Assembly: GCA_029260215.1 (NCBI GenBank)
Contig: JAJDDQ010000087.1
Location: 1-64,000 of the forward strand
From: Phycisphaerae bacterium
GTDB taxonomy: Bacteria > Planctomycetota > Phycisphaerae > UBA1845
Reading direction: 5' to 3'
Length of the DNA: 64,000 bases
Shown: positions 11,913 to 63,339 of the stretch, one piece after another
Layout: each line of letters starts with the position of its first letter
How positions within the stretch are numbered: the stretch's first letter is position 1
Translations under genes and position numbers: made by a program
Notes under the pieces: generated by a model
Database searches by the model: none
Seen by the model: only the letters and a program-made list of their open reading frames with translations
Told to the model about the DNA's origin: nothing

Positions 11913-11924
11913 CTTCCCTGCACG

Positions 11925-34466: not shown

Positions 34467-34818
34467 GGGGGCGATTGGTTTCGACCGGGCGAGTGCAAGG
34501 TTAAGCCGCGTGCCGAGGTTGCTCGTAGGCCTCGTAAAACCACGAGCAAAAAACTAAGTGGCAACTCTCAGTTGCGCATGGCTGCCTGATTAGGTAGCCC
34601 GTTCCGCGATCGACGCCCGCTAGATCGTCGGAGCGAAAATAGTGGGCTGGCATGGTCGTTCTACTCGACGGCGTCCGTGTGAGAAATCAGCCGAGTTTGC
34701 CAATGACAGAGCCTGTCGGTCGGCGCTGTCTGCGGCGAGAAATAAATGATCCCGACTACGCACGTAGAAACTTTTCCGGATCCGCCACGGGACGGGGGTT
34801 CGATTCCCCCCGCCTCCA
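34467..34818 (+). ncRNA. ssrA: Transfer-messenger RNA
   Basis: The 5' end GGGGGCGATTGGTTTCGAC and the 3' end GACGGGGGTTCGATTCCCCC then CGCCTCCA form the tRNA-like domain. GGGGGCG (34467-34473) pairs with CGCCTCC (34811-34817) as the acceptor stem, and the T arm is TTCGATTCC. CCA is not encoded. The tag frame is read as GGC at 34560-34562 through TGA at 34587-34589, giving GNSQLRMAA after the charged alanine. The resume point is supported by the upstream TAAGT, and the stop lies in a hairpin GGCTGCCT/AGGTAGCC. It rescues stalled ribosomes and also serves as the insertion target of the element that follows. Confidence 0.95.
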
Positions 34819-34890: not shown

Positions 34891-36204
34891 TCACTTCAAA
34901 GGGCCTTTCTGGGTCAACAACGCATCGTCGATGCCACTTTCGAACTTCGTGTATTCTTCGTGAAACGCGAACCGGTCCAGACCACGGTAGTGGTCGTGGA
35001 TCGGGTCGGCAGCGTGGCCCATTGCCACCTTCGACACCTCGCGACGAATCTTGCTCACGTGCGCCCGCGTCCTGTGGTAATGCCGCAGCCAATGCCATCG
35101 AAGCAATGACCAGAGCCTGCCGGTCCTCGGGTGCTTGTGTACGAGTACGCCAGCCTCCAGAGCGTAGCGTTTCAGCCGTATGAGCGTTTTGTTGCCAGCA
35201 ACCTGGTTGCCAGCCTGGTTCATGAACACCCAATCCGACGTTTGGCCGAGGCCCATTGAACCGATAACGCTTGCCAGCCGGTTCGTAATATGCACCGGTC
35301 GACGAGCCGCCCGGCTCTTCGGTATCCACAGGCCATCCGCCGTCAGGCAACGCCGGCGCAATTCTGGGCGAACGCGATCGTCGTCAGGCCGCTTGATGTC
35401 CAGGATGATTTCACGTTCATCAAGGTCGATATCCCCGACCTGAAGAAACTGAAGTTCCTGAAAGCGGAATCCGCCTTCGCAGATGAAGACGATCAGATTC
35501 ACGGTCTGCGTATCGAAGTGTTTTGAAGCAACCTCGATGACGGCGTTGATCTGATCCGGGTAAATCGTCGGCGGTGGCAACGTGTGCGTTGGCAAACGAT
35601 CAAGCTCGGCTTGGCGGCCGGTTGCCGCCGGGTTCGGTCCGGACATGAGCTTGCGTTTGAAAATGACGTACCCGTAGAAATTGCGCACGGCGTCCATATA
35701 GTGGTTCGCTGTGGCCGCACCCACGCCAGCTTGGTCGCGCAGATACGATTGGAATTTCACCAGCAATCCCGGATTAACGTCCTGCACGAAAATCAACCGA
35801 CGCTTCTCCATCCACGCCCGCAGGCAACTCAGTCTGCCCTTGAGCTTCGCAACGTACTCGTAGCTCCGGCCCAATGTTTCGATGTAGCCAATGAAGCCAT
35901 CGACCACCGGGCCCATCCGTGTTCGCTCGGGTTCGGTCTCCTTCTCAGGATAATGTCGCTGTCGAAAGAGTTCCTCACTCTTTCGCGATGCGATGAGCCG
36001 AGCGAACGAAAGATCCGTCTCGCGAGTGCTCTTGCTAATCCCCTTCTTGTACGCGCGACCCTGGCTGCGTTGACCGGATGCTGCCATCTTGGCCAGTTCC
36101 CAGTACATCTGCCAGTATGGGCTGCGTGGGGTAAGAAAGAGCGTGACCTCGCCGACGCGTTCCGACTTGGTCCACCTGTTCTTACGCGTCTCCTTTCTCG
36201 CCAT
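34891..36204 (-). CDS. Tyrosine recombinase (integrase) of the ssrA-inserted element
   Basis: The 437-residue protein has a SAM-like N-terminal domain (about 115-200: SYLRDQAGVGAATANHYMD) and the catalytic domain. The first Arg is in CEGGFRFQELQFL (~261). The HxxR box is in WHWLRHYHRTRA (~382-393), the GH in VAMGHAAD (~405), and the nucleophile Tyr in IHDHYRGL. The set Arg, HxxR, His, Tyr is complete, so it is likely active. It is transcribed toward ssrA, as usual for tmRNA-inserted elements. It is expected to cut the ssrA 3' end. Two HTH proteins lie just upstream on the same strand. Confidence 0.9.
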   Translation of the reverse strand: MARKETRKNRWTKSERVGEVTLFLTPRSPYWQMYWELAKMAASGQRSQGRAYKKGISKSTRETDLSFARLIASRKSEELFRQRHYPEKETEPERTRMGPVVDGFIGYIETLGRSYEYVAKLKGRLSCLRAWMEKRRLIFVQDVNPGLLVKFQSYLRDQAGVGAATANHYMDAVRNFYGYVIFKRKLMSGPNPAATGRQAELDRLPTHTLPPPTIYPDQINAVIEVASKHFDTQTVNLIVFICEGGFRFQELQFLQVGDIDLDEREIILDIKRPDDDRVRPELRRRCLTADGLWIPKSRAARRPVHITNRLASVIGSMGLGQTSDWVFMNQAGNQVAGNKTLIRLKRYALEAGVLVHKHPRTGRLWSLLRWHWLRHYHRTRAHVSKIRREVSKVAMGHAADPIHDHYRGLDRFAFHEEYTKFESGIDDALLTQKGPLK

Positions 36205-38948: not shown

Positions 38949-40499
38949 CTACGCCCGTTGCGAAAACAACACGCGAAGCGCATTCCTGCCGTTCGCATCG
39001 AATGTTCGCCCACCTTGAAAAACGATGGCTTCCGCCTCAAAATTGTTCGTTGGGCCGCCCTTCTTCAAGGTGGAAAAGACGCGCGGAATGACCTCCCAGT
39101 CCAGCGATTCCCTACCCCCGGCTGCCTGGGTTAACTGTTCCTCGCCGGAATCGTTGAGGGCGGTACTCATGTTCGACGTGCCGCGATAAACCAAGATCTT
39201 CCCAATCTGGTCTGCGGCAAACTCGTTGGTTATCGAGCACGCGTTCTGGTGAAATATCTTCGTCTGGAGATTGCCCAAAAATGCGTCGACTTCCGCCCGT
39301 CCCTGGTCGCCGGGCAGGACCGAATAGAACCCAGGAAGGTTCTGCGAAATACATACGGTGATGAGTCTTGCGCTGCGCGCCGTCGCTTGAACCTCTTTGT
39401 CCTGCGATGTCAGGAACTGCTGCCCCTCGTCCATCCAGAGTACGGCGGGTCTTGGATTTCCGCCGGGGTTGCGGCGTTCAGCGGAACGTTGAAACGTGTG
39501 TTTGAAAAGGACCTGGGCGAGTCTCCCGGCTTCGCCGTATTCTTTCACCGGCATGTCCAGGACGACCACGGCGCCGCTTTCGAGAATCATCTCCGGAACG
39601 AGGTTGGTAGATGTGCAGAAGAGTTCCCGGAGCATTCCACGCAGAAACGCATCCGCGAGGCTCGAAAACGTGACTTCGATGCAACCGCGTGTCTTCTCTG
39701 GGATGCGTGGATAATCGCCCCAGAAATACTCAGCCGCCTGCTGGAAATCATTCTGCTGCACGGTGGTGAGTTCACCCGCGCGTTTCTTGTGGTCGCCCTC
39801 ACGAATGCATTCGCAGCACAATGATCCATTTTGCCACTCGGTCGATTCCCGCTCGCGCTCGCTGCGCGGGGCAGATCGAATGACCCGGGCGATATCGGGA
39901 AGGGATACAGAACCCTTTGCGATGAGCAACAGGTCGATTGCGTTGCGCAGTAGCTGCTCCAGCGTGCGCTGCCAAAACTCATCGTTGTTCGCTTGACCGC
40001 TATTTCGATCGGCCACCTCGAAGAGCGTCGAGAAAAGCGCGACAAGGTTGTGCGTCAAACCTCCGCCCGGCCCGGGCCGACACGCTTCGTAGGCCAACGG
40101 GTTGAATCGATATGGATGATCCGGTCCGAACAGGATGAGCGAATCTTCCCGTCCAGTTTCCTTGCAAAGCTGTTTCCAGTGCTCGGTTTCGTCGGTTTTT
40201 GCCGTCAGGACGAGAAAACCATATCCCTGCTGCAACATGGCCTTGGCGAACGTGCGACCTGACGCTGAGGATTTTCCGCTTCCAATCCCCCCGAAGATCA
40301 TTACGCCTTCGCAGGCGTCACGAAGCGTCCAAGGGTCTCTGGGTGAAAACCGAAGGATCTCGGAATCTAGGGAATACGTCCCGACCCGTGGTACGGGTCG
40401 AGGACAGGACGCGAACGCGGTCAACGTGCCGGCGAAGCTCGTAAGTAGTCGAAATGCGTTGCGCGAAGTGTGATGTGGTGCGCTGTTCGGTTTCTCCAT
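38949..40499 (-). CDS. Type IV coupling protein-like ATPase (VirD4/TraG/TraD type)
   Basis: The 516-residue protein has a Walker A MIFGGIGSGKSSA near residue 77 and a Walker B AVLWMDEGQQFLT near 355. The pattern between them (GFLVLTAKTDETEHW) and the closing SCISQNLPGFYS-like helix (TVCISQNLPGFYSVL) fit T4CP/FtsK-type hexameric ATPases that link relaxosome and secretion channel. No strong N-terminal membrane pair is seen, so it may be a soluble or peripheral form. ATG 40499 has GGAG 8 nt upstream. Expected partner: the MobF relaxase at 44861. Confidence 0.8.
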   Translation of the reverse strand: MEKPNSAPHHTSRNAFRLLTSFAGTLTAFASCPRPVPRVGTYSLDSEILRFSPRDPWTLRDACEGVMIFGGIGSGKSSASGRTFAKAMLQQGYGFLVLTAKTDETEHWKQLCKETGREDSLILFGPDHPYRFNPLAYEACRPGPGGGLTHNLVALFSTLFEVADRNSGQANNDEFWQRTLEQLLRNAIDLLLIAKGSVSLPDIARVIRSAPRSERERESTEWQNGSLCCECIREGDHKKRAGELTTVQQNDFQQAAEYFWGDYPRIPEKTRGCIEVTFSSLADAFLRGMLRELFCTSTNLVPEMILESGAVVVLDMPVKEYGEAGRLAQVLFKHTFQRSAERRNPGGNPRPAVLWMDEGQQFLTSQDKEVQATARSARLITVCISQNLPGFYSVLPGDQGRAEVDAFLGNLQTKIFHQNACSITNEFAADQIGKILVYRGTSNMSTALNDSGEEQLTQAAGGRESLDWEVIPRVFSTLKKGGPTNNFEAEAIVFQGGRTFDANGRNALRVLFSQRA

Positions 40500-40793
40500 C
40501 TGCGTTGCTCCAAGTCGTTTGCAAATCCTGTATTGGCGAACCAACGGTACACAAGTATTTTCGTATGCTCCGACCCAAAAATCCCCAGGTAAGCGCCCGT
40601 GTAACAGGCACAAATCTCCGAGTTCAGGCATTTGATCGCACTACTTCTCAGTCACGACTTGTACGCGCCATACCCGATCGTGATTTGTTATGCCGTTTTT
40701 TTCACCCCATCGCGGGTGTTTCTACTTGACTTGTTGCGGGTGGTGTGCTTTTCTCGAATGATAGAGTGACAAACGGGAGATCATCGCCGACAG

Positions 40794-43930: not shown

Positions 43931-44202
43931 GGCGCTCTCTCCTACCGCGTTGTGTGGCACGTGCCCGAACGCCAAGAGAATAACACGCCGAACGACTTGG
44001 GGCGATTGGAATGCCTCCGAGACCAGGGGCGTTTTCCCCGAGATGAAGCCCCTTTGTGTTCAAACGGCGATTCTGATACTCCGTGGTAGATCGTTGTGCG
44101 CGACCGGGAACGCGCCGGTCAATTGAAGTGTGGGATTCGCGGGGAGCAGGCCAGAGGCGATGCCGCATGATCCAAGAATAGTTGCTTTCGGTCGAATCGG
44201 CG

Positions 44203-44860: not shown

Positions 44861-47647
44861 ATGCTCCGAATGATTCAAAACACCTCCGCAGCGTCGGCCA
44901 AATCGTACTATACCAAGGGCCTAACCCGCGAAGATTACTACAGCCAGGGCCAGGAGATTTTAGGTCGCTGGGGCGGCCGCGCGGCGCAGCTTCTAGGGCT
45001 TGATGGCTACGTAGATCGAGAGTCGTTCGAGGCGTTGTGTGAGAATAGGCATCCGCAAACTGGCAAGCGCCTGACGGTCCGCACCAAGGACAATCGCACC
45101 GTGGGCTACGACCTCAATTTCCACGTGCCCAAGAGCGTATCTGTGCTACAGGCCTACACACAGGATCAATCCCTGGTTGAGGCGTTTAGGGACGCCACGC
45201 AGGAGACCATGCTGGAGATCGAGGCCGACATGAAAACTCGCGTGCGACGGGGCGGTCGTGTAGCGGAGCGCGAAACAGCCAACGCTGTGTGGGCCGAGTT
45301 TATCCACTTTACAAGCCGTCCCGTGGACGGCGTGCCCGATCCGCATCTACACGCACATTGCTTCGTGTTTAACGCTTCGCACGACGATAAAGAGAACCGT
45401 TTCAAAGCGGGACAATTCAGGGACATCAAGCGGGACGCGCCTTACTACGAAGCGGCCTTCCACGCGCGCCTGGCCAAGACGCTCGCGGAACAAGGCTACG
45501 CCATCGAGCGCACCCACAAGGGGTGGGAGATCGGCGGCGTGCCGCAGAACGTGTTGGACAAGTTCTCGCGCAGAACGGCACAGATCGAAGAGGTAGCCGA
45601 GCGACGCGGCATTACCGATCCCAAGGCTAAATCGGAATTGGGTGCCAAGACCCGCGCCGCCAAGGACACCGAGCACACGCGCGACGAATTACGACAAGGA
45701 TGGCTCGGTAGAATGTCGCCCCACGAACACGCCGCTTTGGAACGCGTGGCCGCACGAACCGACCCAGCACCGAAGCCCAAGATCGACGGTAAACGTGCGA
45801 TGGACTACGCCGTCGCGCATGGCTTCGAGCGGTCTTCAGTCATCAGTGAACGCCAGCTAAAGACCGAGGCCCTGCGTCATGGTGTTGGCAACGTTACCGT
45901 GGATGAGGTCCACCGCGAATCAGAGCGCAAGGAGGTGCTTTCCGGTGACCTGAACGGCCAGCGCATGGTCACCACGCGCGAAGTGCTGGCCGAGGAAAAA
46001 CGCATGCTGGATTTTGCACGACTGGGGCGCGGTGTGTATGAACCGCTGGGCGCGCGTGGCTATGCGTTTCGGCGGGATTTTCTGAGCGACGAGCAAAAAG
46101 CCGCCGTGGAACACATTCTACAATCTCGCGATCAGGTCATCCTGCTTCGCGGTGGCGCCGGGGTCGGCAAAACAACACTCATGAAAGAGACCGTGAACGG
46201 CATCCGCGAAGCGGGAAAAAACGTCTTCGCGTTCGCGCCATCGGCAGACGCCAGCCGGGGCGTGCTTCGCGACGATGGCTTCAGCAAGGCGGAGACGGTG
46301 GCCAAACTCCTCGATAGCGAAGAACTGCAAGCCGAAACCAGGAACCAGGTCATCTGGATTGACGAGTCCGGTCTTTTGAGCGTCCGGGACATGGGCCGAG
46401 TGTTCAGCATCGCCGAGCGCCAGAACGCGCGTGTACTCCTATCAGGCGACACCAAACAGCACCTGCCGGTTCTACGTGGCGACGCCATGCGTTTGCTGGA
46501 AACCGAGGCCGGCCTCCAGCCGGCGGAGGTTTCCAATATCAGGCGCCAGCGAGGTGACTACAAGGCCGCCATTGGCGACATCAGCAAGGGGCGATTGGAG
46601 GACGGCTACAAGAAGCTGGACCAACTCGGCGCCCTCAGGGAGGTTCACGACCGGGACGAACGCCACCAGCAGTTAGCGCGTGACTACTACGAAGCTCTGA
46701 CCCAGGGGCGCACGGTGTTGGCAGTGTCGCCCACGCACCGCGAGGGCGCAGCCGTGACCGAGGCCATCCGCGCGGAACTACGTCAACAGGGCCGGATCGG
46801 CACCGAAGAGCGCCCCTTCACGCGACATCGAGTCCTTCAGCTGACCGAAGCTCAGCGCAGCGATTCGGCGAACTATCGCGAGGGCCTGGTGGTGCAGTTT
46901 CATCAGAACGTGCCGGGTTTTCAGCGTGGTCAACGGGTCAAGGTCGGCGCCGTCGATGTGGACGGCACGGTGCGCGTGCTGGCGGCGGTGCGCGGCGGTG
47001 AGGTTTCACCGTTGCCGCTGGAGCGTTCGCGTCATTTTCAGGTGTACGAGAGGGAGTCGTTGAATCTGTCAACGGGCGACCGTTTGCGCATCACGCAAAA
47101 CGGTTTTACCAAGAACCGCCGCCACCGCCTCAACAACGGCGCGGTGTATTCGGTAAAGGGCTTTACCGAGGAAGGCGACCTTCAACTGGCCAACGGCTGG
47201 GTGGTGGACAAGGACTACGCCAATTTCACACACGGATTCTGTACCACGTCGCATGCTGCGCAGGGTAAGACCACGGACAGGGTCTTGATCGCTCAGGGTG
47301 CGGAATCCTTCGGGGCGTCCAGCGCGGAACAATTCTACGTTTCGGCAAGCCGGGCACGCGAACGCGTGACCGTGTACACCGAGAACAAGGAAGACCTCTT
47401 GGACAGAGTGCAGCGATCTGAACGGCGCATCTCGGCCACGGAGTTGATGCAGCAGGACGCTCAAGCGCACAAAACGGCACGCAGCGAGCGGCTGCGCGAA
47501 CACACCGAGACACTCAACCGCATGGCGACCCAGACCCGCGCCTACGCCAGCCGACAGCGTGACCGCATCGCGGAAAAATACGCGGCATTCCGAGAACGTC
47601 GCGCCGCGCCGCCGGAACCGGCGCAGGGGGTGCCCCATGAACGATGA
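44861..47647 (+). CDS. MobF-family relaxase-helicase (TrwC/TraI type)
   Basis: The 928-residue protein starts with the relaxase domain. Catalytic tyrosines lie in the N-terminus (AKSYYTKGLTREDYYSQG), and the metal-binding three-His motif is PDPHLHAHCFVFN (~160). The central and C-terminal part is a superfamily 1 DNA helicase: Walker A LRGGAGVGKTTLM (~427), DEAx-type WIDESGLLS, LLSGDTKQHLPV, and ASRARERVTVYT near 830. It nicks oriT, binds the 5' end and unwinds the transferred strand. It is smaller than F TraI (1756 residues) and close to TrwC (966). The small gene at 47637 overlaps its end. Confidence 0.93.
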   Translation: MLRMIQNTSAASAKSYYTKGLTREDYYSQGQEILGRWGGRAAQLLGLDGYVDRESFEALCENRHPQTGKRLTVRTKDNRTVGYDLNFHVPKSVSVLQAYTQDQSLVEAFRDATQETMLEIEADMKTRVRRGGRVAERETANAVWAEFIHFTSRPVDGVPDPHLHAHCFVFNASHDDKENRFKAGQFRDIKRDAPYYEAAFHARLAKTLAEQGYAIERTHKGWEIGGVPQNVLDKFSRRTAQIEEVAERRGITDPKAKSELGAKTRAAKDTEHTRDELRQGWLGRMSPHEHAALERVAARTDPAPKPKIDGKRAMDYAVAHGFERSSVISERQLKTEALRHGVGNVTVDEVHRESERKEVLSGDLNGQRMVTTREVLAEEKRMLDFARLGRGVYEPLGARGYAFRRDFLSDEQKAAVEHILQSRDQVILLRGGAGVGKTTLMKETVNGIREAGKNVFAFAPSADASRGVLRDDGFSKAETVAKLLDSEELQAETRNQVIWIDESGLLSVRDMGRVFSIAERQNARVLLSGDTKQHLPVLRGDAMRLLETEAGLQPAEVSNIRRQRGDYKAAIGDISKGRLEDGYKKLDQLGALREVHDRDERHQQLARDYYEALTQGRTVLAVSPTHREGAAVTEAIRAELRQQGRIGTEERPFTRHRVLQLTEAQRSDSANYREGLVVQFHQNVPGFQRGQRVKVGAVDVDGTVRVLAAVRGGEVSPLPLERSRHFQVYERESLNLSTGDRLRITQNGFTKNRRHRLNNGAVYSVKGFTEEGDLQLANGWVVDKDYANFTHGFCTTSHAAQGKTTDRVLIAQGAESFGASSAEQFYVSASRARERVTVYTENKEDLLDRVQRSERRISATELMQQDAQAHKTARSERLREHTETLNRMATQTRAYASRQRDRIAEKYAAFRERRAAPPEPAQGVPHER

Positions 47648-49254: not shown

Positions 49255-49290
49255 CGGCGCTAACGATTGAGAACGAGTACTGGATACGAT

Positions 49291-50217
49291 GTGGCACACA
49301 AGGAAGAACAGGAATATCACAAGATAACGCGTAACACGCGCATCATCGCCGTGGGCAACCAGAAAGGCGGCGTGGGCAAGACGACTATCGCCGTCCATCT
49401 CGCCGCGGCGCTCGGTGAACGCGGTCGCAAGTGCCTCGTTTGGGACCTGGACGTGAATTGCGGTTCGACGCGGCATTTGGGCATCCCGGACGGACTCAAC
49501 GTGCTGGGCACGTTTGAGGTGCTGACCGGCGCGGAATCGGCCCAGGAAGTGATCGTGAGGCCCGGCGATCTCGATGGCGTCACGCTTCCCAAGAACGTTG
49601 AATTGCTGCCGGCCCACGTCAAGCTCGAAGGGTTGGATCGTGTCCTCGCGGCTCGGAATTCCTTCGTGGCCAGCCCGGACCTGTTGATTGCGCCATTGGA
49701 ATCGCTGCGGGGCCAATACGACTACATCCTTTTGGACACGGCACCCAATCTGACCACACCCACCATCGCGGCCTACAAGGCGGCGGCGTACTTCTTGCTG
49801 GTGACCACGCCGGAGTCGTTCGCCATCGACGGTCTGAACAACGCCATGAAGTACGTGGCCAACGCCCGCGAGGCGGGCAACCGCGCGCTGAGACTCATGG
49901 GTGTGGTGGTCGGCAAGGTACCGGGGCGCGGCACGCGGTTGTCCAGTGAATTACTCGATTACGTCGATCGCACCTTTGCCGGTGGCGACGCGTTTATGCA
50001 GCCCTACAAGACCACGATCAACGCATCCACCGTCATTCCGAGTGTACAGAAAGACGGGCGCACGCTGTTTGACACCGACCCTGAGCACAAGATCGCCTGG
50101 CAGTTCAGGGCGCTGGCGAGTGAGGTGGAAAAGAGATTCGAACAATTGGAGGCAGCGACGGGAAAGGAGGACAAATCGAATAGAGTTGGTCCTGCGGAGG
50201 ACGTCAGGAATGGCTAA
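49291..50217 (+). CDS. parA: ParA-type partition ATPase
   Basis: The 308-residue product has the deviant Walker A of ParA/Soj (GNQKGGVGKTTIAVHLAAAL near 23). It continues with LVWDLDVNCGSTRHLG (A'), YDYILLDTAPNLTTPT (Walker B) and LLVTTPESFAIDGL. These proteins segregate plasmids or stabilise integrative elements after excision. GTG 49291 has TGGA about 9 nt upstream; an upstream TTG (49267) is possible. The start of the RHH gene overlaps its stop by 8 nt. Confidence 0.9.
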   Translation: MAHKEEQEYHKITRNTRIIAVGNQKGGVGKTTIAVHLAAALGERGRKCLVWDLDVNCGSTRHLGIPDGLNVLGTFEVLTGAESAQEVIVRPGDLDGVTLPKNVELLPAHVKLEGLDRVLAARNSFVASPDLLIAPLESLRGQYDYILLDTAPNLTTPTIAAYKAAAYFLLVTTPESFAIDGLNNAMKYVANAREAGNRALRLMGVVVGKVPGRGTRLSSELLDYVDRTFAGGDAFMQPYKTTINASTVIPSVQKDGRTLFDTDPEHKIAWQFRALASEVEKRFEQLEAATGKEDKSNRVGPAEDVRNG

Positions 50218-51435: not shown

Positions 51436-51620
51436 GGATACTTTCATCGCGGGAACATCCGAGGGCGCGAGTACAACCCCACGTTGATGTCGCGGCGTTG
51501 GTGCGCGCGTTTCCAGGCGCTATTTCAATACTCTTCAGTTTTCGTTCCAAAATGCCGAAAACAAGTTCAAATCGATGAGGGTGATTCCTTACCCAGAATA
51601 AAATGGTTGGAGAACAGAAG

Positions 51621-54600
51621 ATGGCAGACAGCCAGAAAAAGTCGATGGGAATAGTTGGGCTTGCGGTTGCCAGCGTGGCGTTTGGCGGCATTTGGCTCGG
51701 TGTCAAGCTCGGCAACGAACCCCAACCAGTTGCGGCGGCGCCCACTGATCCGACGCTCTATCACTTCTTTCACGACGACGGCTGGAGTGGCACGCTCATC
51801 GACGAAAACGCCGTAGTCGGCTGGAAAACTGCATCTTCCGAGTCGAAATTCTCGGCTGTGCTCTTTCAGAGAGTGCAGGATCCGGGTGCCACGTCCAAGT
51901 TCGCGATGATGGTATCCGGCTACACCGGTGAATTCGACTACGCGGTTGGCTCCCTTGAAGGCGAGTGGGGGTATGACGTCGCGAAGATCGACGGAAACAA
52001 GCTGAAGCCAACCTCGAACGGTTCCGGACCTGGAAAATGGGAACCTGTTCCCGACCCCAACGAAGATGGGTTGTTCTCGATTGACGAGCTAATCGGAGCC
52101 TCGGCGGGCGGGGACTACACATCTGAATTCGGAGACAGCCTGATTGAATCGCAGTTTTGTGTGATGGCGCAAGTTGGATGCGGCGGCGTGGTGAAATGCG
52201 GCACTTGCTCAACCGACGGAACCCAAAAAGGCCGAACCAGCAAAGGAGGCGGGAAGATTGATTCCTGCTGCGTAGAAGGGGAACAGGCACCCGAGCCACC
52301 CGGACCACCACAACCAGGTACTACTGATGTTGGACCACCGCTTGAGTGCGTAAATCCTGACTGTTCAGGTGGACCGGAGTTCCCCGCTGCTGAAGAAATC
52401 GGCGAGATCGTCAAGGTGGAAAAGCGTGGCGGATACGACGGCACCGACGGTGCCGAAGATGGAGGAGAGGGTTGCGCGTCATCAGCGCTTTCCAATGGCG
52501 TTGGCGAGGAAGAGGAGGATCAGGGCCTCGGATACTGGAACCACGGCGGAAATTTTATAACTTTTGCTGAAGCCAGCGGCCTTGGACTGCACGTCCATAT
52601 TCCGACGGGAAACGTTTACGCAAAGCACGACTTGGGTCCTGGCGTGACGGTTCAATACAATCACATGGATCGCGGCACCGAATCGACGTTGGGTAAGGGT
52701 TGGACGGATGGCAACAACCTCTACCTGGATACCGAAGCGATAGTCGGTGCCATCTTGGTCGTCGACGGTTCCGGTTACGAGAGCGCCTACACGTCGAATG
52801 GAGTCGGGTTTGACCGCCCTGTCATGCGCGACGCGGACCTGGTCTTTGTCGGAAACCAGTATGAGTTACGCTATCGTGACGGCGGGCGGGTACGATTCAA
52901 CATCGCCCCGACAACGCCCGGCGGAAGCATCCACCACGTAGCTGAGTTCGAAAACCAGCATGGATCGATCACACGATTCGATTATCTGCTTTCGCGGCTT
53001 TCGAAGATCACAACGGCCCACGGGCTTGAGATCGATTACAACTACAACGCCGAGGGGCGGATTACGAGCATCGATCACACCAACGGTGAAAGTACTTCAT
53101 TTGTCTATTCAGAAGACAAGTTGGTAGGGATTTGCGACGATGCCGGGTGCCTTGAATTCGGATACACGGGCGATTTACTGACAAGCGAAATGCTTAGGAA
53201 CGGCGTAACGTTTACATGTTCGTACACGCCTAGGTCACGCGAGATCAAGGATTCCCTGGGCGGGGCCATTGTGAGAGTTGACGCACCACGATTTCCGGAT
53301 TTTCGCAACGATCATATCAACACGTGGAACAGCGTGGGATATCTGCCAACAAATACGGTTCAAGTCACCGACGGACGGGGCGAGGTGTTGCATCGTGTCC
53401 GCAATCAATTCGGAAGGAGCGTTGCGATCAAGCGCCCCATTTCGCAATGGTCCGCTGTGACTCTCTTCCAGATGACATATGCTGCGGATGGTGAGGGGCG
53501 AATCACGTGGATGAAGAACGGTGTCGGCGCGACCCAAACGCTTGAATATGATTCTCTTGACCGACTGTCGCTGCGCACGGATGAGATGGGCGTGGAGACC
53601 GCGTACGCCTACTGGAACGATCCCAGTGTCCGACGCTATATGAACATTTCCAGTGTCACGCGCTCGATCGGCGGCGACGAGTCGATCTGGAGCGCCGACT
53701 ATTTTGGCGCTAACGGAAGGCTCAAGGGAATAACGGACCCCGTTGGCAACTCGATATCCTACACCTATACGTTTCACGCACAGGGCCCGAACAACCTTCC
53801 CGGAAGAGTCAAGGAAGTCGAACGGACCGACCGACTTGGCAACCGTACGAAACGGGAATATAGCGAACTTGGCCAGCTCATTATTCACACGATCGACCCT
53901 GGCGGACTCAATCTGGTTCGCGAATATTCGTATGGAAAGTTTCACCATCTCCTTACCAGTATCGAGACGCGCGTAACCCCCACAAAAACGCTGACAACGA
54001 TACTCGACTACGATGACGCGCTTCGTTGGAATGGCCTTACGATCGATCCCGTCGTATCGTCCGAGAGTCTTAATCTCACGTATTCGTGGACGATGGATGG
54101 CCAAGGAAAAACCGAATCATTTACTGACGCGAAAGGAACCACCACCGCTTATGAGCGTGACCACAGAGGGCGAATAGAGACGATCACGCATGACCCGGCA
54201 GGGTTGAATTTGCGCGCGGCGTACGCCTACGATGATGCCGACCTGCTCATCTCGTACACCGATCCCAACGGCGGTGTCTCACACTACGATTACAACGAAT
54301 ATGGGCACCTGGTTTTTGTACGTGATGCGGAGAATCTGAACACACGGTTTGTTACAAACACGCTCGGCTTGGTCACGACGCGCAATCGGTGGCATCAGCC
54401 CGGAAGTGTTGCCGGTCCGGGGCATCGAACGACGTACGCCTACGACAACGCGAATCGTATCCGAAGTATCTCTGTGCTTGGAAGCGGGACGACGTATGTC
54501 GAATACACGGACAGCGGTGCTTGCACACCTTGTGGTGCCGCTTATCGACCACTTGTGCGCAAAATCACAGACGGCGAAGGAAAGATATCGTTTTTCGAGT

Positions 54601-57563
54601 ATGACGATCTCGATCGTCTGACCAAGGCCATCCGAAAGATCAACGATGTGGCTGACAACGGCGGCGACGCCGACGACGCGGTTTGGGTATTCAGTTACGA
54701 TGCTGAAGGCAATCTGCTTAGTCGTATGTCACCCGAAGGTGAAACCGTCGCTTACCTCTACGATGCCGCCAATCGGCCTTACCAGCGCGCGGTCGATTCG
54801 CTTGGGAATAATCTGGTCACAACCGTCAGCTACGACGGGGCGAGCAATCCCGAGTTCATCACGCTGCCCACAGGCAACGTCATCACGCTGACGTACGACA
54901 TGGCCAACCGCCCGGAGGCGGTCGTGGACAGCATCGGCGATCTGGTGTCGCTCACCTACGACGCCAATGACAACGTCGAATCGTATGTCGACGCGAACGG
55001 CAACGCGTGGTCGTTCAACTACGACGCTGCGGACCGGCTCGTGAAGGCCTACGACCCGCTGGTTGAATCTCCCGCTGATGCGTTCACGACGTACCTGTAC
55101 GACCTGAACAGCAACCTCACCGGTTTCGTCGATCGCAACGGCGTACAGGCGCGTTTCGAGTACGACGGAATCGATCGTATGACCCGCATGGTCGAGGATT
55201 TCGTCGGTACGCCCGGCAGCGGCACCGAGAACACAGCCACATCCTTCAGCTACAATGGCTTGGGCGACATCACGTTCCTGACGGACCACGACAACAATGT
55301 CACGGAATACGTGTACGATTCGGCAGGTCGTGTAGAGCGGATCAAGTATCCGGACAACAACCCGCCGGGTTCGGGCGAGCTGGCGTTCGAGTACAACCTG
55401 GTCGATCGTGTGACGAAACGCACCGATCAGTCGGGCGTTGAAACGACCTATACGTACGACGACCTGCATCAGCTCACCGGTCGGTCCTATTCGACGCTGC
55501 GTGACGAGACGTTTGCCTTTGACCGTTCGGGCCGGTTGAAGCTGGCGCAAAACGATCTCGCCCGGCTGGAGTTCGCGCACGATCCGATGGGGCGGTTGGA
55601 TTCGCTTCAACAAATATTCCTGACCGACGTCGCTCAATACACGACGGACTTTGGCTACTCCGTGGGGCCGGTCGGCGCAACACGCACGATCGACTACCCC
55701 GCCGGGCGTGCGGTGGTTGACACATTCGACGAACGGCTTCGGATGATCGACGTGTCCGGCGGTGCGGGTGTTGGGGCGAGTTGGCAGTACGACGACGCCA
55801 ACCGTCGCATCGGTGCCGCACTGGCCAACGGCGTGAGCAGCACGTTCGGCTTTGACGTGAACGACCGCGTGACGGCCATCACGCACACTGGCACAGCGCC
55901 GATTTTCGACGTGCAATACGGATTCGGCCCGGCTGGCAACCGGCTGTTCACAAAGAACCTTCTTCAGTCGGACCGCAGCGAACTCTACGGGCACGATAGT
56001 CTGTACCGGCTTCGTTCGCTGTCGCGCGGTGTCTTGAACGCCAACAATGACGCGATCACGACACCGCTGGTGCATCCGGCACTGGCGACGGCGAAGCAGT
56101 GGACCAACCTCGATCATCGCGGGAATTGGCTGGACGTTTCGGCCACGATCAATTCCGTCACCACCCAGCAAACGCGCACGCCCAACGGTGTGAATGAGTA
56201 TGAATCGATCGATCCCGACGGACCTGATCCGCAACCGGCTGTCGCGCTGGTTCACGATGCCAATGGCAACTTGACACTTGACCCGCTGGCACTGAACGTC
56301 GGCGATGCGGGCGCGCCCAGTGGCCAGAAATACGAATATGACGAGGAAAACCGCGTCACCGTCGTACGCCGCGCGAGCGATGACGCTGTCCTGCTCGAAA
56401 AGCGCTACGACGCCGTGGGCCGACGTGTTGAATCAATAGATCATCAGGACGCGCACGAGCTTTGCGGTGTGGGCCAATCTACGCGCACGCGTCACCTCTA
56501 CGTCGGCCCGGAGACGATTGAGGAGTACACGCTCTGCGACGACGGAACCGGCGGAATCGATACAACACTGGCCCGTGAATTCATCTGGGGCACGTCCTTC
56601 CCCGAACCGGTGGCCTTGATCGACCACACCGACGCCGGAGTGTCACCCGTTGGCACGCCGGAAGTCCTGCACTATGTCCACGACATCCTCGGAAGCGTCA
56701 TCGCGCTAACGGACGCTGCGGGCGCTGCCGTAGAGAACTACACGTACGAGGCCTACGGCCAAACACACATTACCGACGCCACAGGCACGGGGTTGACAGA
56801 ATCCGCCTACGCCAACCCCTTCGCCTGGACCGGCCAACGCTACGACGCAGCCGTCAACCTCTACCACTTCTGGTTTCGCACCTACTCGCCGACGCTGGGC
56901 CGGTGGTTGGGGCGCGACCCAATTGGTTATGTAGATGGCCCGAGTTTGTACGCATACGTCAGTGGAGGGCCGCTCGGTGCCACCGATTCGTTCGGTCTGG
57001 TTTTGGATTTTGTTCTGGACGCGATTGGGGCTGTCAGCGACGGATTCGACTACGTGAGTGGTGGTTACACGCAGATCGGTTTTATCATCGGCGTTGAAGG
57101 GATTTCCTACGGCGAGGCCGTTGCCGCGGGGGATCAGATGCAAGGTGCAGTAATAAACGGCGGGCTCGATATCGCAGCCGCTGCCATCCCGGGTATGATC
57201 GGCCCAGGCGGCATCAAAGTCGCCGGCAAGGCTGCCGATGCTATTGCGGACGCTGCCAAGGCAGCAGATAATGCCGCTGACGCGGCAAAGGCCGCGAAGA
57301 AAGCTGCCGAGGCCGCCAAGAAAGCTGCGGAGGCTGCCAAGAAAGCTGCGGAGGCTGCCGAGGCTGCGAAACGCGTCAAGAAAGCCCGAAAAAAGCAAAA
57401 AGCTCCAGGACAACAATTTGAGGAAATTGAAGGTGCTCAACGGAAATCGCGAAAAGGGCGTCGCCCTGGGACGATAATCGAACAAAAGGGCAAGTCAAAG
57501 CAGCAAGATCGGATTGACATAAACCGACAGGGAAAAGAATGCGAGAGCGGCGGTGGCGGGTGA
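51621..57563 (+). CDS. RHS/YD-repeat giant protein
   Basis: The 1980-residue product has an N-terminal hydrophobic segment at about 8-27 (MGIVGLAVASVAFGGIWLGV). A Cys-rich region at about 165-230 follows, then dozens of YD units (for example YEYDEENRVTVVRRASDDAV). Around 1760 the RHS core reads LGRWLGRDPIGYVDGPSLYA. Such proteins form a closed cocoon round a variable C-terminal toxin. After the core come about 190 residues: a GxG-rich segment, an Ala/Lys repeat (KAAEAAKKAAEAAKK) at about 1860-1900, and a basic tail ending GGGG. The tail matches no toxin I can name and may be truncated. ATG 51621 has GGAGAA 7 nt upstream. Confidence 0.88.
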   Translation: MADSQKKSMGIVGLAVASVAFGGIWLGVKLGNEPQPVAAAPTDPTLYHFFHDDGWSGTLIDENAVVGWKTASSESKFSAVLFQRVQDPGATSKFAMMVSGYTGEFDYAVGSLEGEWGYDVAKIDGNKLKPTSNGSGPGKWEPVPDPNEDGLFSIDELIGASAGGDYTSEFGDSLIESQFCVMAQVGCGGVVKCGTCSTDGTQKGRTSKGGGKIDSCCVEGEQAPEPPGPPQPGTTDVGPPLECVNPDCSGGPEFPAAEEIGEIVKVEKRGGYDGTDGAEDGGEGCASSALSNGVGEEEEDQGLGYWNHGGNFITFAEASGLGLHVHIPTGNVYAKHDLGPGVTVQYNHMDRGTESTLGKGWTDGNNLYLDTEAIVGAILVVDGSGYESAYTSNGVGFDRPVMRDADLVFVGNQYELRYRDGGRVRFNIAPTTPGGSIHHVAEFENQHGSITRFDYLLSRLSKITTAHGLEIDYNYNAEGRITSIDHTNGESTSFVYSEDKLVGICDDAGCLEFGYTGDLLTSEMLRNGVTFTCSYTPRSREIKDSLGGAIVRVDAPRFPDFRNDHINTWNSVGYLPTNTVQVTDGRGEVLHRVRNQFGRSVAIKRPISQWSAVTLFQMTYAADGEGRITWMKNGVGATQTLEYDSLDRLSLRTDEMGVETAYAYWNDPSVRRYMNISSVTRSIGGDESIWSADYFGANGRLKGITDPVGNSISYTYTFHAQGPNNLPGRVKEVERTDRLGNRTKREYSELGQLIIHTIDPGGLNLVREYSYGKFHHLLTSIETRVTPTKTLTTILDYDDALRWNGLTIDPVVSSESLNLTYSWTMDGQGKTESFTDAKGTTTAYERDHRGRIETITHDPAGLNLRAAYAYDDADLLISYTDPNGGVSHYDYNEYGHLVFVRDAENLNTRFVTNTLGLVTTRNRWHQPGSVAGPGHRTTYAYDNANRIRSISVLGSGTTYVEYTDSGACTPCGAAYRPLVRKITDGEGKISFFEYDDLDRLTKAIRKINDVADNGGDADDAVWVFSYDAEGNLLSRMSPEGETVAYLYDAANRPYQRAVDSLGNNLVTTVSYDGASNPEFITLPTGNVITLTYDMANRPEAVVDSIGDLVSLTYDANDNVESYVDANGNAWSFNYDAADRLVKAYDPLVESPADAFTTYLYDLNSNLTGFVDRNGVQARFEYDGIDRMTRMVEDFVGTPGSGTENTATSFSYNGLGDITFLTDHDNNVTEYVYDSAGRVERIKYPDNNPPGSGELAFEYNLVDRVTKRTDQSGVETTYTYDDLHQLTGRSYSTLRDETFAFDRSGRLKLAQNDLARLEFAHDPMGRLDSLQQIFLTDVAQYTTDFGYSVGPVGATRTIDYPAGRAVVDTFDERLRMIDVSGGAGVGASWQYDDANRRIGAALANGVSSTFGFDVNDRVTAITHTGTAPIFDVQYGFGPAGNRLFTKNLLQSDRSELYGHDSLYRLRSLSRGVLNANNDAITTPLVHPALATAKQWTNLDHRGNWLDVSATINSVTTQQTRTPNGVNEYESIDPDGPDPQPAVALVHDANGNLTLDPLALNVGDAGAPSGQKYEYDEENRVTVVRRASDDAVLLEKRYDAVGRRVESIDHQDAHELCGVGQSTRTRHLYVGPETIEEYTLCDDGTGGIDTTLAREFIWGTSFPEPVALIDHTDAGVSPVGTPEVLHYVHDILGSVIALTDAAGAAVENYTYEAYGQTHITDATGTGLTESAYANPFAWTGQRYDAAVNLYHFWFRTYSPTLGRWLGRDPIGYVDGPSLYAYVSGGPLGATDSFGLVLDFVLDAIGAVSDGFDYVSGGYTQIGFIIGVEGISYGEAVAAGDQMQGAVINGGLDIAAAAIPGMIGPGGIKVAGKAADAIADAAKAADNAADAAKAAKKAAEAAKKAAEAAKKAAEAAEAAKRVKKARKKQKAPGQQFEEIEGAQRKSRKGRRPGTIIEQKGKSKQQDRIDINRQGKECESGGGG

Positions 57564-58969: not shown

Positions 58970-59941
58970 TTAGTAACTCACTTTGAACGTCGGTGAATCC
59001 TCGGGCCGCGATTTCCTGCGATCGTAGAGTCTTGTCGTCGAAATATTTGCGTGTCCCAACCAGGTTTGCACGTAGGCGATGTCAGACTGGTGTTCGAGGG
59101 CGTTTGTGGCGGCAGTGGCGCGCAGCGCATGCAAACACAATCCATCAACCGTGATGCCCGCCCGGCGGCCGTATTCCTTCACAGCGGCGTAAATACCCCC
59201 ACCCGTTATGGCGTTCTCGAGTGTTAGGGTGATGTTGTTTTTCACGGGCCTGAATAACGCCCCGGATTTGTCCTGACGGTGCCCGGCGACATCGAGATAG
59301 TCGTTGAGCGCCGAAAGCGCGGCGGGGTGGACGGGCACGTAGCGCGTCTTCGACCCTTTGCCGAAAACCGTGAAGTGCATCACGCCGCGCCGTTCTCCGA
59401 GGCTGGACACCTTGAGTGCCGCGAGTTCACTGCGTCGCATAGCATGGAACAGGTAGACAGCGATGATGGCCCGGTCGCGTTTGGCTTTGATCGAATCTCC
59501 CTCGGGGGCCTGCAACAACATTCGAGCCTGATCGTCGGAGAGTGCCGGGGTTTTACCTTCGTTGGCGTCGGCGGCCGGGCGCTTGACGCCGGAAACAGGA
59601 TTGTGGGTGACGGCGTTTTCGTTGCAGAGATGGTCGAACAGCGAAGAGATGGCCGAGAGCTTGCGGCGGACCGTTGCGGGTGCGAGTTCCCGATGTTCGA
59701 GTACGGTTCGCCAGGCGATCACATGAGCACGGGTTACATCGCGAAATTCTCCCGCATGCTCGATCCCGCAGAAAGCGACGAAATCTTCGACATCATTCTG
59801 ATAGGCCCGCCGGGTGTTGGGGTTGTCGATGTTGGTGAACCAGATTGTTGCCGCAGGTACGTTGGCGAGACCTTGGAATTGTTCCGCTGTGAGGGCCCGT
59901 GCCCGAGGACTCCCCATGACAATCGCGTTTCCCGCATCCAC
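58970..59941 (-). CDS. Tyrosine recombinase, XerC/XerD-like
   Basis: The 323-residue protein has a SAM-like N-terminal core-binding domain ([20 protein letters not shown]), catalytic Arg in [11 protein letters not shown] (~179), and [14 protein letters not shown] with HxxR (~275). [17 protein letters not shown] supplies the last His and Tyr. Length and motifs resemble Xer-type and small-element recombinases; no integron-specific extra domain is obvious. The start is GTG at 59941, and GGAGGAG lies somewhat far upstream. The gene faces away from the dif-like palindrome at 60017. Confidence 0.88.
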
Positions 59942-60016
59942 ATTTTCAGTTATGATCTCCTCCGTCGAATTGTTGGCGAGACGATCGGATTTTTGGTTCC
60001 GAAAACCTCAATCGGA

Positions 60017-60052
60017 TTTTACTGTTGATAATATATTTTATCAACAGTAAAA
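60017..60052. other. Dif-like perfect palindrome (15-bp arms, 6-bp centre)
   Basis: TTTTACTGTTGATAA at 60017-60031 and its exact inverse TTATCAACAGTAAAA at 60038-60052 flank TATATT. The inner ATAA and TTAT ends around a 6-bp centre match the geometry of XerCD dif/core sites. The site lies 75 bp before the recombinase start and 154 bp before the start of the nuclease-NTPase gene. Confidence 0.65.
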
Positions 60053-60205
60053 ACTGATGTCGATTTTGTGCATGGGGGAGAGCCGCCCATTGGCTGGCTT
60101 GCGAAGAAATCACGGCTTGACAAATTGATCGGGAATGCTCGTGCTAAACGCACGAGCATATTCCATGCGTTGCCGATCTCGCCATTCTTGCATAAGGGGA
60201 TGTCC

Positions 60206-62617
60206 ATGAAACCGGGCTGGTTAGCGGAACACGCGTTCGCAGAGTTTCGAAGACGGCGAAGTCAACTGGAAAGTGTGGTTGGCCAAAACGAGGCGGCGAC
60301 GCGTCTGAAGGTAATCGACACGGTGCTGTTTGAGATCCTGCGCTGGGATAAAGCAGTGGTAGAAACCGAGCTGCATTCGCGCAAAATAGGGTACGCCGAC
60401 TATGTATTCGGTGTCGAATCTAGTTTCTCTCTTGTGCTTGAGGCTAAGCGGCAGGGGACCACGTTCGTAATCTCGGAGCGTGTACATTCCAGCCGCCCGC
60501 TGCCATTTGCCCTGCTAGCTCGGGAGTCGCCGGGTGCGGCCGACGCTCTGCGCCAAGCCTGCTCATATGCTGTCCAATTTGGCGCACAATACATCGCCGT
60601 TTCGAACGGACATCAATGGATTTTGGCGTTGACATTTGTTCAAGGAACGCCGATTGAGTCTCGCTCGGTAATTGTTTTTGCTAGCATTGATCAAATCGCG
60701 GACAATTTCCGAGACTTCTGGGGGGCGTTTTCACCCTTGGCCATCAAAACGAACCGTCCAACCCAAGATCTTCTCGATAGTTGTTTCGACCTTGCACCCC
60801 CGAAGCTCTCAGCGCGAATCAACAACTATCCTCAGCCAGCTTCAAGAAACATCTTTCGCAATGAGCTGAGCACCATCATAGAGCCGATGTGGGCTAAGGC
60901 TACGCAAGACGATTCGGATATCGGATTCTTGAAGGCGTGCTATGTGAAACCTTTGAGTGAAACCGACGATCTGGACGTCGCCAAAATGCTTCTGCGCCGA
61001 GCGCAACCGCGCGAAGACGCCGAGGAGGTCACGGTCGCAGCGGCGGCTCGCAATGTATCATCGCTGATTTACGACACGGCTCGCGCCGCACACAAGCCTG
61101 TCGCGTTGCTGGGGCGGGTAGGATTCGGAAAATCCATTTTCTTGCATTATTTGCGCAATATCTACGCTGCGGAAGAACTAAGCAAGTACATTCAGATAGT
61201 TATTAATTTCGTTGATCGTCCAGACACGCCTGATGACGTGCCTGGATTCATTTACTCTGAGATTGATCGCCAGTTATTGGAATTACATTCAATAGATGTT
61301 CGAAGCGACGCGTTGGCAAGGTCAGTTCTAAACTTCGAGTTGGAGCGGTTCCGCTCCTCAACACGTGCGAAACTGTATGCGGATGACGCCGAGAAACTCG
61401 CCAATGCTGAGGTGGTGTTTCTTGAAGGACTTCAACAGGATCGCCACTCATATTACGGCAACGTTTTTCGGCACCTGATCAAGGGACAAAAGAGATGCGT
61501 TGCCGTTTTCTTCGACAACCTGGATCGGCAATCAGATTCGATTCAAGAAAGCGCATTCCTGCGGGCTTCCGCAATAGCGCGCGATTGGCTCGCGGTTGTC
61601 TTTATTTGTCTTCGTCCAGGAACGTTTCAGCGATCTCGATCAGCTGGAGTGCTTGACACTGTGGCGCCTCAAGTGTTGACGATTGCGCCTCCGCCCACCA
61701 GTGTCATGTTGAAGCGCAGGTTCGAGTATGCACAAAAAGTGGCGGAAACGGCGGAGGACTTTTCCGCGCATAGCGGTGCAGAAGAACAGAGCCCACTGGA
61801 TTATAAAGCAGCTCGGGATTTCTTCCAGGTTTGCGCTCAATCTTTTGGGCGAAATCAATCGCTCGGTGAAATATTTACTTGCGTATCAAATGGGAATGTG
61901 CGCGCCATATTGCACTATGTTCGTGATGTAATGAGAAGTGGACATCTAGACACTGAAAAAATCCTCGAAAAAGTAGAGGCGACGAGAAAATATGACATCG
62001 CTGCACACGAGGCGCTCAGAGCGCTATTATACGGAGATTACAAACATTTTTGCCCGTCGTCGTCACCGTTTATCAACTTATTCGATATTCAACATTCTGA
62101 GCCACGCGAGCACTTTACTCGCCTATTGGCTCTTGAATTCTTTGGACAACACGTTACTGCGGGCGGCTCGTCGGGTTACTGCCAAGTGGAGGACGCGCAG
62201 GCGTACCTATATTCACTGGGATATTCAGGGTCTCATGTCCAGTGGACACTTCGAATACTCTACGAAGGCAAGTGCTTGGAGGGAACGACCTACGATGCGC
62301 TGTTCGACGAGTCGGGTGAGGAATTGAGAATCACCGCCCTTGGAAGGTACCATTGTAATGACCTCGTGGGTACGTTTGTATACGTGGATGCCATTTCCGT
62401 CGATACGCCGATTATTGACGAGCGACGTAGAAGGGAAATCAAGGATGTTAGTGAAATCGGAGATAGAATTCTTCGCGCACGAAGCATGCTGGGCTACCTA
62501 GAAAAGTGTGCCAACAGCCTTGGACAGGCGAACGCTCGTCGGGCGTGGGAGCGAGTATACCTAAGTGTTGATGAGGAACTAGTGACAATACAAGACATCG
62601 TCGAGTCGACAAAGTAG
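60206..62617 (+). CDS. PD-(D/E)xK-like nuclease domain fused to P-loop NTPase
   Basis: The 803-residue protein begins with a type I restriction HsdR N-terminal-like segment: RLKVIDTVLFEILRWD, then IGYADYVFGV and FSLVLEAKRQ. The last two hold the Asp and the Glu-x-Lys of a PD-(D/E)xK nuclease (~60-75). A P-loop GRVGFGKSIF lies near 302 and Walker B CVAVFFDNLDRQ near 425. The C-terminal part (about 550-803) is helical with a winged-helix-like end. The architecture resembles nuclease-NTPase anti-phage proteins (for example Avs-type), but no exact family is named. ATG 60206 has AGGGG 6 nt upstream; ATG 60200 is too close to it. The small gene at 62620 follows. Confidence 0.65.
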   Translation: MKPGWLAEHAFAEFRRRRSQLESVVGQNEAATRLKVIDTVLFEILRWDKAVVETELHSRKIGYADYVFGVESSFSLVLEAKRQGTTFVISERVHSSRPLPFALLARESPGAADALRQACSYAVQFGAQYIAVSNGHQWILALTFVQGTPIESRSVIVFASIDQIADNFRDFWGAFSPLAIKTNRPTQDLLDSCFDLAPPKLSARINNYPQPASRNIFRNELSTIIEPMWAKATQDDSDIGFLKACYVKPLSETDDLDVAKMLLRRAQPREDAEEVTVAAAARNVSSLIYDTARAAHKPVALLGRVGFGKSIFLHYLRNIYAAEELSKYIQIVINFVDRPDTPDDVPGFIYSEIDRQLLELHSIDVRSDALARSVLNFELERFRSSTRAKLYADDAEKLANAEVVFLEGLQQDRHSYYGNVFRHLIKGQKRCVAVFFDNLDRQSDSIQESAFLRASAIARDWLAVVFICLRPGTFQRSRSAGVLDTVAPQVLTIAPPPTSVMLKRRFEYAQKVAETAEDFSAHSGAEEQSPLDYKAARDFFQVCAQSFGRNQSLGEIFTCVSNGNVRAILHYVRDVMRSGHLDTEKILEKVEATRKYDIAAHEALRALLYGDYKHFCPSSSPFINLFDIQHSEPREHFTRLLALEFFGQHVTAGGSSGYCQVEDAQAYLYSLGYSGSHVQWTLRILYEGKCLEGTTYDALFDESGEELRITALGRYHCNDLVGTFVYVDAISVDTPIIDERRRREIKDVSEIGDRILRARSMLGYLEKCANSLGQANARRAWERVYLSVDEELVTIQDIVESTK

Positions 62618-62619
62618 AG

Positions 62620-62859
62620 ATGGGGCAGGACACGGCAAAATCCAGCACTGCAATAGCCGGATTTTCGCGCGTAGATTCGCAAACAGATGGGTTCTTCTCT
62701 GTGTATCTTCTCGCTATTGGTTCTCTCGATATTGTGCCGATCAGGTCGCATCAAAAGGATAGTATTGCGCTGACGCTAAGTAACGAAGTGGTGACGGCGT
62801 TGATGGACCAAACTGCTTCGGCGGAACAAGACCTGAAATCCAGCAAACCAATCAGATGA
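62620..62859 (+). CDS. Small protein coupled to the nuclease-NTPase gene
   Basis: The 79-residue product (MGQDTAKSSTAIAGFSRVDS) has a central hydrophobic strand (FFSVYLLAIGSLDIVPI) and a C-terminal helix (VVTALMDQTASAEQDL). It starts 2 nt after the nuclease-NTPase stop, which argues for cotranslation. It could be an accessory or antidote subunit. No family is recognised, and it may instead be spurious. Confidence 0.5.
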   Translation: MGQDTAKSSTAIAGFSRVDSQTDGFFSVYLLAIGSLDIVPIRSHQKDSIALTLSNEVVTALMDQTASAEQDLKSSKPIR

Positions 62860-62886: not shown

Positions 62887-63339
62887 TTACGTGAAAAGCT
62901 CGCCCTGCGTCGGCTGTGGATCGCCCGCGACCAGCGTGACCGGCGGACCGTCCAGCACGTAGGCGGTTCCCCGATGGGTCACGGTCATCCCGTGATAGAA
63001 ACCCATCGGATCGTTGCGGGCACGCTCGCCGCAGTCGTCGCGGGTTTTCTCACTGTACGTCGTGGCCGGGCCGTCGAACGCCGCCAGTTCACGCAGTCGG
63101 TAGGCTTGGACCCGACCGACAACAACGCTCGTCGCAACCCAGACGCATCCTCGGAGCCGAAACGGTTTGCGAACCCGCCCGCCGTCGCCGATCACGTCGG
63201 CGCTGTAGGATGCGACGATGTCGCCTTCGCGATCGCGACGGTTGTGTTCACTGTTCCAAACGCCGTGCGCAAGGCGTTTGGGATCGACCTCGATCACTCG
63301 GCGTGGGTTGCGTGCCTTGTCGCTGTTCATTGTCGGCAT
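62887..63339 (-). CDS. Hypothetical mobile-element protein
   Basis: The 150-residue, basic, mainly beta product has no recognised domain (VWVATSVVVGRVQAYRLREL, then GPATTYSEKTRDDC). A GGAG element lies about 13 nt upstream of ATG 63339. It looks like the anonymous proteins frequent in mobile elements of this lineage. Convergent with the preceding small gene (27-bp gap). Confidence 0.5.
   Translation of the reverse strand: MPTMNSDKARNPRRVIEVDPKRLAHGVWNSEHNRRDREGDIVASYSADVIGDGGRVRKPFRLRGCVWVATSVVVGRVQAYRLRELAAFDGPATTYSEKTRDDCGERARNDPMGFYHGMTVTHRGTAYVLDGPPVTLVAGDPQPTQGELFT

Follow-up and report, generated by a model that had tools for sequence, protein, structure and literature searches.

We analyzed a window of 64,000 nucleotides from a Phycisphaerae bacterium (assembly GCA_029260215.1, contig JAJDDQ010000087.1, positions 1 to 64,000, forward strand), in which a Xer-like tyrosine recombinase, a dif-like palindrome, an 803-aa nuclease-ATPase, and a small open reading frame (ORF) lie within positions 58,970 to 62,859. 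The reading we prefer, with a probability of roughly 60%, is that two independent modules, a candidate defence enzyme and a recombinase-site resolution system, sit side by side in a ~63-kb mobilisable island integrated into a transfer-messenger RNA (tmRNA) gene. A preliminary description of this DNA had instead joined all four parts into one mobile defence cassette. This was not supported, as the site was found to track the recombinase and to be absent from nearly all nuclease loci. Domains, invariant catalytic residues, the phyletic and context pattern, the association of recombinase and site, the number of sites per replicon, and the ends of the island were computed directly, and all counts are a function of the genomes sampled. 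The central features are as follows:

58970..59941, minus strand: 323-aa tyrosine recombinase of Xer-like type (Pfam/NCBIfam; Phage_integrase E=8.7e-27)
60017..60052, no strand: dif-like palindrome TTTTACTGTTGATAA-TATATT-TTATCAACAGTAAAA, 15-bp perfect arms and an asymmetric 6-bp spacer
60021-60048, no strand: 11-6-11 core of the dif-like site, ACTGTTGATAA TATATT TTATCAACAGT
60206..62617, plus strand: 803-aa protein combining a PD-(D/E)xK nuclease, a P-loop ATPase (STAND/ORC-like), and a winged helix, a candidate for defence by a single gene (ORF, motifs, models)
62620..62859, plus strand: 79-aa ORF starting 2 nt after the nuclease-ATPase gene, unlikely to belong to the system and possibly not a gene

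The candidate defence enzyme and its relatives

The 803-aa protein is divided into a nuclease domain (~ residues 20-190), an ATPase (~ residues 280-600), and a winged helix (~ residues 610-735), the last of these found in the C-terminal third by the structure model (Z 9.7). The PD-(D/E)xK-like N-terminus and P-loop NTPase of the preliminary description were both recovered. Residues E29, D65, E79-x-K81, and Q117 were invariant in 21 of 21 aligned diverse family members, as were the Walker A motif (GxxGxGK[ST]; GRVGFGKS at residues 303-310 of this protein) and the DNxD (residues 437-440) of the Walker-B-like FFDNLD. In Pfam, HSDR_N_2 was matched by four of the eight members of our first alignment and AAA_22/AAA_16 by six of the eight; together with the conserved Walker A and DNxD, the latter assigns the predicted central domain to the P-loop NTPases.

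Because the full-length model was weak, the N-terminus was modelled separately. The AlphaFold2 model of the N-terminal 205 residues reached a predicted TM-score of 0.76, with the order helix-strand-strand-strand-helix-strand. Its closest structural alignment was to BpuSI (Z 9.2, 164 residues, 5.2 A), followed by HsdR 3h1t (Z 8.6, 121 residues, 4.2 A), DrdV (Z 8.1), and EcoR124I HsdR (Z 7.6); SduA and Hjc scored lower. Foldseek alone gave no match with E below 0.001 for this model, so the nuclease assignment rests on motif, profile, and structure combined. As modelled, the N-terminus is a member of the PD-(D/E)xK superfamily of the HsdR/type IIG-like kind, in agreement with the nuclease-like structure that had been anticipated. 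Rows of the structure comparison made with the whole model mostly covered the winged helix, and the absence of other families there is therefore uninformative. The protein itself had no family match above noise in Pfam, NCBIfam, or PADLOC 2.0 (none at E<=1 in PADLOC-DB 2.0), and a sequence search of solved structures returned generic P-loop matches only. Matches of its relatives in PADLOC-DB 2.0 were weak and scattered, the best being to DrmMI (E 6.8e-6).

Relatives were collected by tblastn and profile searches, and by this homology the protein belongs to a conserved stand-alone family present in Planctomycetota, on plasmids of Proteobacteria, and in enterobacterial prophages. Relatives were observed in 5/294 genomes of the phylum (source genome counted) and 6/198 of the class; the best other relative in the phylum is 43% identical at full length and is interrupted by a stop codon. 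In PLSDB, 29 plasmids of diverse Proteobacteria carry a relative, and full-length relatives were present in 8 of 5426 E. coli genomes. The family's occurrence is sparse and patchy. Five loci with relatives were found in IMG/VR, retrieved only with the K. aerogenes relative as query; searches of the viral collection with the source protein and the Shewanella protein returned none, and no relative was found among the INPHARED phages.

The genomic surroundings of the homologues, which had been expected to be of defence type, were largely prophage, plasmid, and restriction or Dnd surroundings. Both of the E. coli copies inspected, of the eight that are full-length, are themselves accessory genes of a Rac-like prophage, in opposite orientation. 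The K. aerogenes copy breaks up a P2-like prophage remnant, and that of Klebsiella p2020S05-051-109k sits among phage-like genes. Downstream of the Shewanella copy are genes for a methyltransferase, endonuclease, and regulator (a type II restriction-modification context), in Rhodobacteraceae SC52 and Vibrio casei the gene has type I restriction-modification genes nearby, and the G122 copy stands between DndC/DndD-like and DndA-like genes. Copies in Rhizobium, Kosakonia, and Pantoea adjoin integrases of other families. This is the pattern of a mobile single defence gene, which is not proof of defence. Single-gene anti-phage or anti-plasmid defence is the best reading of the candidate enzyme, which we regard as horizontally spread island cargo adjoining a stability module. 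The family looks real and largely unstudied; no paper on it was found in the open-access literature, and prior validation under another name is possible.

For the defence activity, its trigger, and the cutting of DNA, we infer the following course. The winged helix and the STAND/ORC-like ATPase would recognise a phage protein, or else incoming or replicating phage or plasmid DNA; assembly of the nuclease-ATPase would be driven by nucleotide binding; and the HsdR-like PD-(D/E)xK domain would cut DNA, so that the invader is destroyed or the infection aborted.

Two members were of separate interest. In locus L044 (G122, 3901-12191), the relative lies within what seems to be a disrupted dnd phosphorothioation cluster that includes an IS3-type transposase. 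On a Rhodobacteraceae plasmid (L140, 6941-9814), a member has two cold-shock domains fused at its C-terminus, a possible nucleic-acid sensing extension.

The recombinase and its palindromic site

The catalytic residues R170, K195, H271-R274, H297, and Y306 are all present in the 323-aa recombinase and invariant in its close relatives, consistent with its earlier description as Xer-like. XerD was its best solved-structure relative, and the XerD and XerC models were the closest, at 155 and 152 bits; as the curated cut-offs are 330 and 335, we call the protein Xer-like rather than a XerC or XerD. Its score was also far below the cut-off of the XerS model. Relatives are 70-84% identical in other planctomycetes and about 52-62% identical in Pseudomonas, Nitrosospira, Massilia, and others; 131 plasmids carry one, 87 of them conjugative, and relatives on plasmids of Pseudomonas and others are 55-60% identical.

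A perfect palindrome of Xer geometry had also been reported, and it was confirmed with its 15-bp arms and 11-6-11 core. A single copy is present in the window, where shuffles gave an expectation of 0, and a single copy in the full 4.97-Mb genome at <=3 mismatches. Upstream of 42 of the 59 recombinase loci scanned we found a site of the form NNNNNTGATAA-AATAYR-TTATCANNNNN, at a median of 168 nt from the start of the match, and no locus had two. The complete plasmids pPla133_1 (45 kb) and that of Pseudomonas KBS0707 (41 kb) have exactly one site each, and so does pA506 in the 50 of 57 kb scanned, where the recombinase is near parA. The inner GATAA/TTATC is nearly fixed. Two-sided (dyad-compensatory) changes of the arms numbered 54, vs 23 +/- 4 in shuffles, and arm covariation was 0.226 vs 0.086; both comparisons are descriptive, the sequences being related. 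The 16-nt core of the site was present in 8/198 genomes of the class, and the site at <=2 mismatches in 3/294 of the phylum, a rarity that rules out a chromosomal dif. The idea of the spacer as a hybrid attachment pair was dropped, as the genome has no second site.

Judged by this linkage, the palindrome goes with the recombinase, and neither goes with the nuclease. The layout is that of a single-recombinase Xer/dif-type module, with a linked gene and one near-palindromic site per replicon, and it fits multimer resolution rather than a cassette attachment site. In the resolution reaction that we infer, the recombinase would bind both equal half-sites of the palindrome and recombine one copy of the site with another solely in dimers of the element, so that a circular form (excised or plasmid) stays monomeric, alongside ParA. 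The open-access literature held no paper on this recombinase-site family.

Variations in layout were also observed. On Pseudomonas-type plasmids, a GNAT-type acetyltransferase gene (L150, L151) or an unnamed ORF (L154, L155) lies between site and recombinase, and the intervening genes in pPla133_1 (L153) include a Phd/FitB toxin-antitoxin pair. Near-perfect sites at L040:10006-10033 (G231) and L041:1283-1310 (G170) have no recombinase nearby and may be remnants or served by another enzyme.

The island, linkage of the parts, and rival readings

The preliminary description had placed the region inside a mobile element, and this can now be refined to a ~63-kb island in the tmRNA gene, with an integrase beside the gene and a 20-bp direct repeat of its 3' end at the far boundary. 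The features are as follows:

34467-34818: tmRNA, adjoined by the integrase
34799..34818, plus strand: left attachment repeat, formed by the final 20 nt of the tmRNA gene (20/20-bp copy at contig 97923-97942, outside the window)
34891..36204, minus strand: 437-aa tyrosine recombinase beside the tmRNA, the integrase of the island (Pfam Phage_integrase)
38949..40631, minus strand: type IV coupling protein (T4SS-DNA_transf, Pfam PF02534)
41117-43975, minus strand: AAA_16 (STAND-like) ATPase with TPR repeats, 952 aa, a second possible defence or regulatory protein
44861..47647, plus strand: TrwC/MobF-type relaxase-helicase (Pfam TrwC E=1.3e-70)
49267..50217, plus strand: ParA partition ATPase (Pfam AAA_31/CbiA)
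51603-57563, plus strand: RHS/YD-repeat protein, 1986 aa, likely a polymorphic-toxin-type gene
62887..63339, minus strand: 150-aa island-backbone protein, with conserved counterparts close to related recombinases in L048 and L052

A strawberry-notch-type helicase is also encoded. Mobility is predicted to come from the island, which encodes an integrase of its own along with a MobF relaxase, the coupling protein, and ParA; as mating-pair formation genes were not systematically sought, we term it mobilisable. A second integrase, related to the first, lies just beyond the right repeat (contig 98027-99328), which suggests tandem islands in one tmRNA gene. A Schlafen AlbA_2 / RecG-C-like protein is encoded near the right end (contig 92712-93875). 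RHS genes were considered as companions of the recombinase and dropped, RHS-like genes being near its relatives only in L037, L048, and L052.

A cassette of recombinase, site, nuclease-ATPase, and small ORF, moving by recombination at the palindrome, could draw on the nuclease gene starting ~150 nt from the site, divergent from the recombinase, on the BsuBI/PstI restriction-modification system that abuts the recombinase in Stutzerimonas, and on locus L046, where a recombinase 84% identical to ours also has a family member beside it. That member is on the opposite side of the recombinase, however, and only ~ 21% identical. Among the ~ 27 nuclease loci scanned, L046 and the source locus were the only two with recombinase and site, the remainder having at most one weak site match, and other recombinase relatives have unrelated neighbours. 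With a single site in the genome there is no second attachment site to bound a cassette, and one site per replicon points to resolution rather than cassette integration. The small ORF does lie 2 nt downstream as described, but its membership in a unit was not upheld: none of the fetched loci contained a homologue of it (best E 0.93), family-model scans gave no match worth keeping, and it may not be a gene. We consider the single cassette quite improbable. The contexts of the other family members, the gene order in L046, and the non-conserved 79-aa ORF make two neighbouring cargo modules the simplest account. An extension of that account, which we hold to be a long shot, is that an undescribed single-recombinase Xer/dif-type module is common to plasmids and islands across phyla and its site is a preferred landing place for defence genes, so that stability and defence are co-inherited; it is suggested by the nuclease-ATPases here and in L046 and by the Stutzerimonas restriction-modification system.

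The recombinase might also be the integrase of an integron-like or Xer-exploiting element, with the palindrome as its attachment site. Xer-like recombinases are linked to the rulB-associated integron-like elements of Pseudomonas, which insert into rulB and carry three recombinase genes plus cargo (PMC4542609); many relatives of our recombinase are in Pseudomonas, and a recombinase adjoining its site resembles the intI/attI layout. Yet one site was seen per locus and per plasmid scanned, never flanking duplicates, and the XerD of the rulB elements has 385 aa and two partner integrases, compared with a single gene here (PMC4542609). In pA506, rulB is annotated apart from the recombinase, with another integrase nearer to it, and the source island comes with an integrase and a tmRNA repeat of its own. 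We hold this reading to be unlikely. About as unlikely is a role of the 803-aa protein in DNA repair, partition, or maintenance of the mobile element (its replication, or exclusion of competing plasmids) rather than phage defence. The ATPase-winged-helix region weakly resembles ORC/Cdc6 folds, and many members are on plasmids and islands, which makes plasmid-plasmid competition plausible. The HsdR-like nuclease, the prophage accessory positions, the restriction and Dnd neighbours, and a distribution much sparser than that of a maintenance core gene speak against such a role.

Several observations weigh against the two-module reading that we prefer. The whole-protein model is weak (pLDDT, the predicted local distance difference test score, of 53) with a poorly modelled ATPase core, so the ATPase class, STAND or ORC-like, is uncertain. 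Some relatives have ordinary chromosomal or metabolic plasmid surroundings, and functional data were found neither for the protein nor for a named relative. No recognisable upstream site was seen at 17/59 recombinase loci, about a quarter, in some cases through a contig end, and a few near-perfect sites have no adjacent recombinase. The putative resolution role is deduced from site number and genomic setting.

Should the nuclease-ATPase prove protective against phages, it would be a compact one-gene restriction-like system, found from planctomycetes to E. coli prophages and missed by the 2023 PADLOC models. Natural E. coli copies in Rac-like prophages, among them WP_040091717, make such defence cheap to test in laboratory strains. 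The recombinase and its 28-bp site would be a clean portable set, with dozens of natural arm variants, for half-site reading by Xer-type enzymes, and useful for plasmid biology outside Proteobacteria.

Comparison with known systems

The 803-aa protein shares with the nuclease domains of HsdR and type IIG enzymes (BpuSI, DrdV, EcoR124I HsdR) an N-terminal PD-(D/E)xK fold and the E...D...ExK...Q order (Z 7-9). Unlike them, it has no helicase motor, methyltransferase, or specificity subunit, and its nuclease shares the chain with an ATPase of STAND/ORC-like type plus a winged helix. It is not a type I HsdR, as no helicase domain was found in Pfam and no hsdMS beside the gene in the window. AVAST (Avs) and other STAND defence proteins combine a nuclease effector and a P-loop STAND-type ATPase in one chain; our protein likewise joins a nuclease-like domain and a P-loop ATPase, and its relatives give weak AAA_16/NACHT/nSTAND matches. 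AVAST proteins also have long C-terminal sensor repeats and recognise phage proteins. In contrast to AVAST, our protein is much shorter, with a C-terminal winged helix and no large repeat sensor seen in the weak model, and neither it nor its relatives had a PADLOC Avs match above noise. Several relatives gave weak matches to family models in the ATPase domain, the best of them to Sll1717-family P-loop ATPases and DS-41 (E 0.0003-0.003); DS-41 is a DefensePredictor system with validation in E. coli (PMC13092281). These matches are confined to the ATPase region and score 17-18 bits, with cut-offs, where shown, of 370 and 75, so these relatives are not members.

For the recombinase, XerS/difSL and XerH/difH each pair one Xer recombinase with one site, with the XerS gene next to difSL (PMC5357621), and the XerL of C. 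burnetii is plasmid-borne (PMC9765430). Our module resembles XerS/difSL, XerH/difH, and XerL/dif in its single Xer-type recombinase and one near-palindromic ~28-31-bp site. It differs in that those enzymes serve chromosome dimers, whereas this family is on plasmids and islands, and in its nearly perfect 11-6-11 site. The rulB elements share a Xer-like recombinase on Pseudomonas mobile DNA; insertion into rulB with three recombinases was not seen here. The single site in the source genome and in every recombinase locus scanned sets the module apart from pdif modules, IMEX, and integrated cassettes, whose mobile segment lies between two copies of the recombination site. Cre/loxP-type resolution of plasmid multimers uses a single recombinase and one site per plasmid, with symmetric arms and an asymmetric spacer. 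Our recombinase and site share all of these features, and differ from Cre/loxP in the Xer-like protein and in a geometry of 11-6-11 rather than 13-8-13.

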